Program-made: the position numbers and the translations under genes | Notes under the pieces: model-generated | Told to the model about the DNA's origin: nothing | The model's database searches: none | Seen by the model: only the letters and a program-made list of their open reading frames with translations | In this document: piece by piece, positions 43,652 through 44,467 of the stretch | Position numbering within the stretch: the stretch's first letter is position 1 | Layout of the letters: each line of letters opens with the position of its first letter | Source: Halobacterium hubeiense | GTDB lineage: Archaea; Halobacteriota; Halobacteria; Halobacteriales; Halobacteriaceae | Length of the DNA stretch: 64,000 nucleotides | Direction of reading: 5' to 3' | Assembly: GCF_001488575.1 (NCBI RefSeq) | Contig: NZ_LN831302.1 | Span: forward strand, 620,001-684,000

Positions 43652-44467
43652 CTAGAACGCGCCGAGACTCGACTGCCGGTCCCGGTCGCTCGCGCCCTCG
43701 GTGACGTCGTAGCCCACGAGGTCGCGCATGTCCACGGCGTACGTCGTCCCGCCGCGCTCCAGCGCGAGCACGCGCCCCTTCGTCCCGAGCACGGTCCCGG
43801 TGGCCATCGTCTCCGCGACGGGGCGGCTATCGAAGGCCAGCCCGTAGTCGAAGTCGAAGCGCTCGATAGGGTCGTACTCGGCAACGAGCGCGTTCCACGC
43901 CGCCTCGTCCACGCGCTCGGCGAACCCCCGGATTTTGGTGGGAACGCGCACGCGGTCGGGAATCTCGTCGGCGATGCCGTACTCGATTTGCCGCGCGCGC
44001 TTGCCGTCCTCGACCGTCCGGACGTGGGCCGCGCGGTCCGCGCCCTGCTCGCGCAGGCGCGTGTCCAGCCGCCACGAGCGCGTCACGCCCACCTTGAACG
44101 TGTCCGGCGCGAACGCCGCCAGGTAGATTGCGTGTTCCTCGTGGCACGACTCCAGCGGCATCGCGCAGTTCCCGATGCAGCGCGCGCACGGCCACGTGGA
44201 CGTGTGCTCGTCGCAGTACGGCGCGTCCGCGTTCCCGCAGGCCTCGTGGACGTCCTCAGAACACTCTGTGTTCTGATGGGCTGGGGAAGACGACTCAGTC
44301 GTCTTCCCAACGCCCTCGTCCGTGGCGCCCGCGCAGTGCCGCTCGCCGAGCGTGTACGCCAGCGACTCGCCCGCCAGCAGCGGCACGCGCTCGACTGTCC
44401 CGCTGTCGGCAACCCGGAGCGCGGCCGGCCCCTCGCCGGGCGTCGTCTCGTACCCCACAATCTGCAC
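43652..44467 (-). CDS. DUF2797 protein with in-frame palindromic insertion
   Basis: A 271-residue DUF2797-type protein. The cysteine cluster GERHCAG, then ACGNADAPYC, WPCARCIGNCAMPLESC gives likely zinc ligands; the second half, YLAAFAPDTFKVGVTRSWRL and RLREQGADRAAHV, has GIY-YIG-like features that some DUF2797 members show. Between the first cysteine motif and the next (residues about 53-72, VGKTTESSSPAHQNTECSED) about 20 extra residues are encoded by two back-to-back hairpins, which look like an inserted element that kept the frame. Confidence 0.8.
   Translation of the reverse strand: MQIVGYETTPGEGPAALRVADSGTVERVPLLAGESLAYTLGERHCAGATDEGVGKTTESSSPAHQNTECSEDVHEACGNADAPYCDEHTSTWPCARCIGNCAMPLESCHEEHAIYLAAFAPDTFKVGVTRSWRLDTRLREQGADRAAHVRTVEDGKRARQIEYGIADEIPDRVRVPTKIRGFAERVDEAAWNALVAEYDPIERFDFDYGLAFDSRPVAETMATGTVLGTKGRVLALERGGTTYAVDMRDLVGYDVTEGASDRDRQSSLGAF
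44256..44308. repeat. double-hairpin palindromic element inside the DUF2797 gene
   Basis: First hairpin: arms TCAGAACAC and GTGTTCTGA with loop TCT (44256-44276). Second hairpin: arms GGGAAGACGACT and AGTCGTCTTCCC with a one-base loop (44284-44308). The two are separated by TGGGCTG. The element with its edges is about 60 bp, divisible by three, and disrupts an otherwise regular cysteine motif in the protein. It looks like a small interspersed palindromic repeat, but a second copy in this window was not seen. Confidence 0.75.

Follow-up and report, generated by a model that had tools for sequence, protein, structure and literature searches.

A paired-hairpin insert in a DUF2797 gene of Halobacterium hubeiense as one copy of a dispersed haloarchaeal repeat family

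How did two adjacent hairpins come to lie in frame within a gene for a DUF2797 protein, and is the segment they occupy part of that protein or a guest in it? The gene is located in a stretch of 64,000 nt of the Halobacterium hubeiense genome (the window), and the initial annotation had taken the hairpins for a small, mobile palindromic repeat able to spread into coding sequence. Both hairpins are present on the plus strand where it had placed them. The first (44256-44276) closes a 3-nt loop with 9 bp of perfect pairing, its arms at 44256-44264 and 44268-44276. The second (44284-44308) is a perfect palindrome whose two complementary 12-nt arms flank a single base; it folds into 11 bp with a 3-nt loop. 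Folded as single-stranded DNA, the segment reaches -25.6 kcal/mol compared with -9.3 +/- 1.9 for shuffles (z = -8.4, 0/200), RNA folding is also strong (z = -6.9), and the palindrome pattern gives no matches in shuffled windows. The proposed size of about 60 bp, the reading frame and the addition of about 20 residues all hold, whereas the proposed extent of 44256-44308 was slightly too narrow, as the insert proper runs from 44252 to 44311 (Table 1). A covariance model matches the element at 44312-44252 with 60 bits. Read in the direction of the host gene, from window position 44311 down to 44252, the insert is GTT-GGGAAGACGAC tga GTCGTCTTCCC-CAGCCCA-TCAGAACAC aga GTGTTCTGA-GGAC, and its 60 nt encode VGKTTESSSPAHQNTECSED, 20 residues added to the DUF2797 protein.

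Table 1 Features of the insert and its host gene, in window coordinates.
Feature	Position	Strand	Basis or remark
Complete element, GTT - hairpin A - CAGCCCA - hairpin B - GGAC, 60 nt	44252..44311	(-)	Boundaries from empty sites and family alignment; covariance model match
Left terminal GTT	44309..44311	(-)	Left end CGTT in 107/128 copies, CGTC in 13/128; C is the target's last base
Hairpin A, GGGAAGACGAC-TGA-GTCGTCTTCCC, 11 bp + 3-nt loop	44284..44308	(-)	Stem varies and covaries among copies
Linker CAGCCCA, conserved, joining hairpins A and B	44277..44283	(-)	
Hairpin B, TCAGAACAC-AGA-GTGTTCTGA, 9 bp + 3-nt loop	44256..44276	(-)	Inner stem pairs covary
Right terminal GGAC, similar to target RRC	44252..44255	(-)	After hairpin B in 125/126 copies
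Target GGC, directly upstream of insertion, consensus RRC^G	44312..44314	(-)	Flanks of 128 copies; empty site GAGGGCG|TCC in L235
Host gene, DUF2797 protein, 271 aa, insert in frame after DEG	43652..44467	(-)	Pfam match to DUF2797

Orthologues of the DUF2797 protein are present in 35 of 40 related genomes. The 20-residue insert is found only in H. hubeiense (G000) and one sister species (G010), and all other readable orthologues in the genus and family are without it (alignment rows L249, L252 and L255, misread or partial, were left out of the count). In these orthologues the equivalent of DEG runs directly into VHEAC... It had been predicted that removal of the insert would rejoin DEG with a cysteine motif, and precisely this junction, DEG-VHEACGN.DAPYC, occurs in a sister species (L235), in which the uninterrupted form reads ATDEGVHEACGNEDAPYC. 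The nucleotide sequence of the empty site is GAGGGCG|TCCACGAGG; with the insert in place it becomes GAGGGCG|TT...GGACG|TCCACGAGG.

Precise empty sites were recovered at seven places: DUF2797, LplA, NAD kinase and the loci L007, L074, L089 and L059. For LplA the sister sequence is GGC|ATCGAC and the filled one GGC|GTT..GGAC|ATCGAC, and for L074 the corresponding sequences are GAC|AGCC and GAC|CTT..GGAC|AGCC. As a base other than G follows the target in these two cases, they fix the cut at RRC^N, and hence there is no target duplication. The site of L089 is empty in a genome with 97% identical flanks, which makes this insertion recent. From such presence and absence in aligned genomes, we infer that the element moves.

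By the family alignment, the two hairpins and the 7-nt linker form one conserved unit whose ends are defined and whose target has a consensus, which the initial annotation had not recognised. The flanks of 128 copies read R R C | G T T on the left and GGAC on the right, where the next base is mostly G, and the C of the RRC target is present in 125 of them. GGAC follows hairpin B in 125/126 copies when counted with a motif without GGAC; most of these loci were retrieved by a pattern containing GGAC, and it is also present in 21/22 copies from a GGAC-free search. A hairpin of at least 6 bp lies directly upstream of hairpin B in 148/158 copies, compared with 90/790 random positions. Across the stems, 98.6% of cells are paired, with 68 double-change cells compared with 20.3 in shuffles (0/500); six of the nine hairpin-B pairs are fixed by the search pattern and uninformative here, and hairpin A lies outside that pattern. 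Family stems are 9-11 bp long and start with a C-G, G-C or T-A pair, the loop is 3 nt, and the tails are CAG and TGG. The two ends carry two different hairpins, and terminal inverted repeats are absent.

Some copies with matching flanks have inverted hairpin loops (L054/L091, GCTGTGC and GCACAGC with TGT/ACA; L005/L064, TTT/AAA), which suggests that one arm was copied onto the other, possibly a trace of template switching within the hairpin. In G004, six intergenic arrays (L077, L080, L083, L084, L086 and L088) have at least four hairpins followed by a repeated GACGAAGTAAGCAC.. sequence, which suggests a larger composite repeat.

The distribution of these sequences supports the insert being one copy of a class-wide, dispersed haloarchaeal repeat family. 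Neither outcome that would have overturned the initial annotation, the 20 residues in distant orthologues or a lack of further copies, was seen: exact-pattern copies number seven in the H. hubeiense genome (at unrelated sites, the DUF2797 copy included) and 19 in G004, and haloarchaeal genomes contain over 100 stretches. The covariance model gives 16 matches in the H. hubeiense genome, more distant copies among them and at least one extra match in the window that is a reverse-strand echo of the DUF2797 copy. The pattern TCAGAAN(3-16)TTCTGAGGAC is present in 8/13 genomes of the genus with 0 control matches, and CAGCCCATCAGAA..TTCTGA in 43 of 146 sampled genomes of the order, representing 24 of 56 genera. 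A scan of named genomes gave at least 118 stretches with the element pattern; among the matches listed, all are from haloarchaea (Natrinema, Natrialba, Haloarcula, Halorussus, Haloferax, Halobacterium and others) except for a single bacterial match with unrelated flanks. The copy in Halobacterium sp. KA-4 (L189) matches the G011 copy L058. The exact 25-nt hairpin pattern has 0 matches in genome contigs because the stems vary. Viral contigs and phage records gave 0 element matches, a similarity search of plasmids gave a single partial match in Natrinema, Rfam contained nothing relevant to the element, and a literature search for the element sequence, archaeal REPs or in-frame palindromes found no published description.

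Copies inside genes were called by a codon-usage test on their flanks, a conservative classifier that gave 24 coding copies at 22 independent sites. All 24 use one strand and one frame (RRC GTT ... GAG GAC GNN), compared with 31.9% expected from RRCG positions in haloarchaeal ORFs. The length is divisible by three at 19/22 independent coding sites compared with 18/64 non-coding sites (p = 2e-6). Together with the precise empty sites, the statistics on strand, frame and length support the original view of a small mobile palindromic repeat that colonises coding sequence. By Pfam, the hosts include DUF2797, NAD kinase, LplA, Trm56, MinD/ParA, a DUF255 thioredoxin protein and TrpB (PALP), as well as an ABC ATPase, PEBP, a UvrD-like helicase, acyl-CoA dehydrogenase, fibrillarin and NadC. 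The insert-bearing TrpB can be aligned over its full length with tryptophan synthases of solved structure, and these show a gap at the insert. Two element copies can occur within one protein (G004; L089), and a four-hairpin form is found in frame in a DR2241-type iron-sulphur protein (L055, ~1501) and in TruD (L068, ~1501, minus). The frame is broken at three coding sites (L061, L137 and L214), as expected if insertion is frame-blind and selection filters later.

Frame-breaking lengths in coding or likely coding DNA were seen in L061, L087, L137 and L214 and include a truncated macro-domain-like protein in G007. A 54-nt copy (L065, ~1501, in G002) lies in frame in an apparent intein, named from its sequence, of the DNA polymerase II large subunit and looks like a mobile element within a mobile element.

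In tnpB genes with weak codon bias, copies of 57 or 60 nt recur at a single site in reverse orientation, and the strand rule is therefore strong, not absolute. This antisense site was seen in several genera with different covarying stems (L127, L128, L130, L158, L161, L185, L202, L211, L222 and L224). An IS605-type element of G008 occurs in three copies (L327, L328 and L329), one without the hairpin pair and two with the pair in frame in tnpB; the insert was thus amplified along with its host transposon.

Single-strand transposition of the IS200/IS605 type has a recognisable signature, namely a fixed target 5' of the element, no target duplication, a right end similar to the target, and subterminal hairpins. 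The element has the RRC^ target, no duplication, the target-like GGAC right end and subterminal hairpins. With somewhat better than even confidence, we favour a non-autonomous element with fixed ends and an RRC target, moved in trans by an HUH (Y1) transposase of the IS200/IS605 type, of which selection keeps the harmless in-frame copies. This reading takes the family, its ends, its target consensus, the empty sites, the covarying hairpins and the single reading frame in genes as observed above, and adds movement as single-stranded DNA by an HUH (Y1) enzyme, to which the anatomy points. The compact hairpin pair (GTT...GGAC) would be excised and pasted as single-stranded DNA, in trans, by an IS200/IS605-type Y1 transposase, and would insert 3' of RRC without duplicating the target. 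The candidate transposase would recognise both hairpins, cutting on the left 3' of RRC and on the right 3' of GGAC. The insertion step itself would be blind to reading frame, and purifying selection would purge disruptive copies, leaving genic survivors with a length divisible by three and one frame. The peptide encoded by the surviving frame (about VRKTTESSSAAHQNAKRSED) would be hydrophilic and free of stops, and would lie where conserved proteins tolerate it.

In the search for a mobiliser, 14 tnpB loci of H. hubeiense were read together with the ends of IS605-type elements that are duplicated within the genus, and no transposase was found there whose own element has matching ends. These loci and ends give no support to a parent transposon in this genome. 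Among archaeal Y1 enzymes, only the IS200 subclass has been reported (PMC6006769). Across 146 genomes, the presence of a Y1 transposase is not associated with the presence of copies (23/43 vs 54/103, Fisher p = 1). Within the genus, copy number correlates loosely with the number of Y1 genes (rho 0.65, p = 0.016; 0.55, p = 0.06 without G004), a relation that is confounded by mobilome size. The wide variation in stem sequence fits poorly with one sequence-specific hairpin reader. It is a real possibility, to which we give less than even weight, that these are class-wide archaeal selfish hairpin pairs, partly within genes and independent of known transposases. They would then be the archaeal counterpart of the Rickettsia palindromes that code for protein, either evolved separately or related only very anciently, and selection on the element would have shaped a peptide frame that is harmless when translated.

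We are doubtful that the element is a terminal-only PATE, that is, the fused ends of a core-less IS605-type transposon, as in Haloquadratum, still moved by the enzyme of that transposon. The PATEs of Haloquadratum walsbyi have near-terminal palindromes and no inverted repeats or target duplications, are too short to code, with a form as short as 52 bp, and have a fixed oligonucleotide at the target (PMC3119063). The element shares all of this, including haloarchaeal hosts: it is small, its palindromes are near-terminal without terminal inverted repeats, its target is not duplicated (GGC|ATCGAC and GAC|AGCC, empty vs filled), and many of its copies lie in or adjoin tnpB genes. However, PATE palindromes match the ends of IS605-type transposons (PMC3119063), whereas no IS605-type element examined in the genus, at the 14 tnpB loci or among duplicated elements, has the ends of our element. 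The copies near tnpB are mostly inside the gene, in either orientation, and are thus targets rather than element ends, and a single core deletion leaves the recurrent two-hairpin form of many genera and the four-hairpin form unexplained. Spread over many genera with covarying hairpins also sets the element apart from PATEs, as does residence in frame in many conserved genes, which the consulted passages of PMC3119063 do not mention. We do not file it as a PATE because no parent with its ends was found at the loci examined, even though it fits most of the PATE description.

REPINs, which are GTAG-tagged and have RAYT transposases, are inverted pairs of short hairpins moved as one unit; the element is likewise an inverted short-hairpin pair acting as a unit, but the GTAG tag is absent. 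CGTC-tagged REPs have an unpaired terminal CGTC tag (variants TGTC or CCTC) and a consensus stem of 8-9 bp starting with A-T pairs, a loop of 4-5 and a CCA tail (PMC3733652). Their pairs, RPE-4 and RPE-6 included, resemble the element in the inverted hairpins with outer CGTY tags, stems of about 8-9 bp, in-frame copies of 20-30 residues and no known dedicated transposase (PMC3733652). That the element is an archaeal branch of this superfamily, an inverted REP pair with its tags outside, nevertheless seems to us rather improbable. Its left end reads CGTT or CGTC (107/128 and 13/128) and its right end CGTCC on the reverse strand, 148/158 copies are pairs with the tags outside, and intragenic in-frame copies add about 20 residues, sometimes two per gene (L089). 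On the other hand, CGTC repeats have been reported from five bacterial phyla only (PMC3733652), the stem starts, the loop (3 rather than 4-5) and the tails depart from the consensus, and the spacer is shorter than in most pairs. Moreover, the CGTC in the element shares bases with the RRC^G target, to which the outermost base at either end belongs, and the likeness is one of tags and organisation rather than of demonstrated sequence homology. We do not file the element among CGTC-tagged REPs because its stem, loop and tail are off consensus. The coding palindromes known from nematomorph mitochondria (PMC6649704) are also perfect inverted repeats in translated sequence, but they lack the dispersal, fixed ends and target of a mobile family. 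An RNA-level element, such as a small archaeal intron, removed from the mRNA with the protein unchanged, would suit the strong RNA hairpins and the few frame-breaking coding copies; it is very improbable, as the length divisible by three and the one open frame of coding copies speak for translation of the insert, and the flanks past RRC and GGAC-G have no conserved splice context. An ancestral segment of the DUF2797 protein, or a palindrome arisen by chance through local mutation, would be compatible with its presence at one position in two species, but is refuted by the insert-free orthologues and by the same sequence at many unrelated sites, and we give it next to no credence. The element is therefore filed as most like haloarchaeal PATEs and CGTC-tagged REP pairs/RPEs, yet a member of neither.

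Protein-coding palindromic elements were first described as a peculiarity of Rickettsia and later as a feature of bacterial REPs. A class-wide archaeal family implies that this habit is not confined to bacteria. The defined 54-60-nt insertions in TrpB, fibrillarin, NadC, TruD, MinD and others, for several of which the empty site is known, constitute clean natural experiments, and the cost of a 20-residue insertion is measurable in genetically tractable haloarchaea. Who moves REP-like elements without a RAYT becomes a question that can be put to the test in organisms where candidate enzymes are few. For genome annotation, the element explains odd lineage-specific insertions of 18-20 residues in haloarchaeal proteins.
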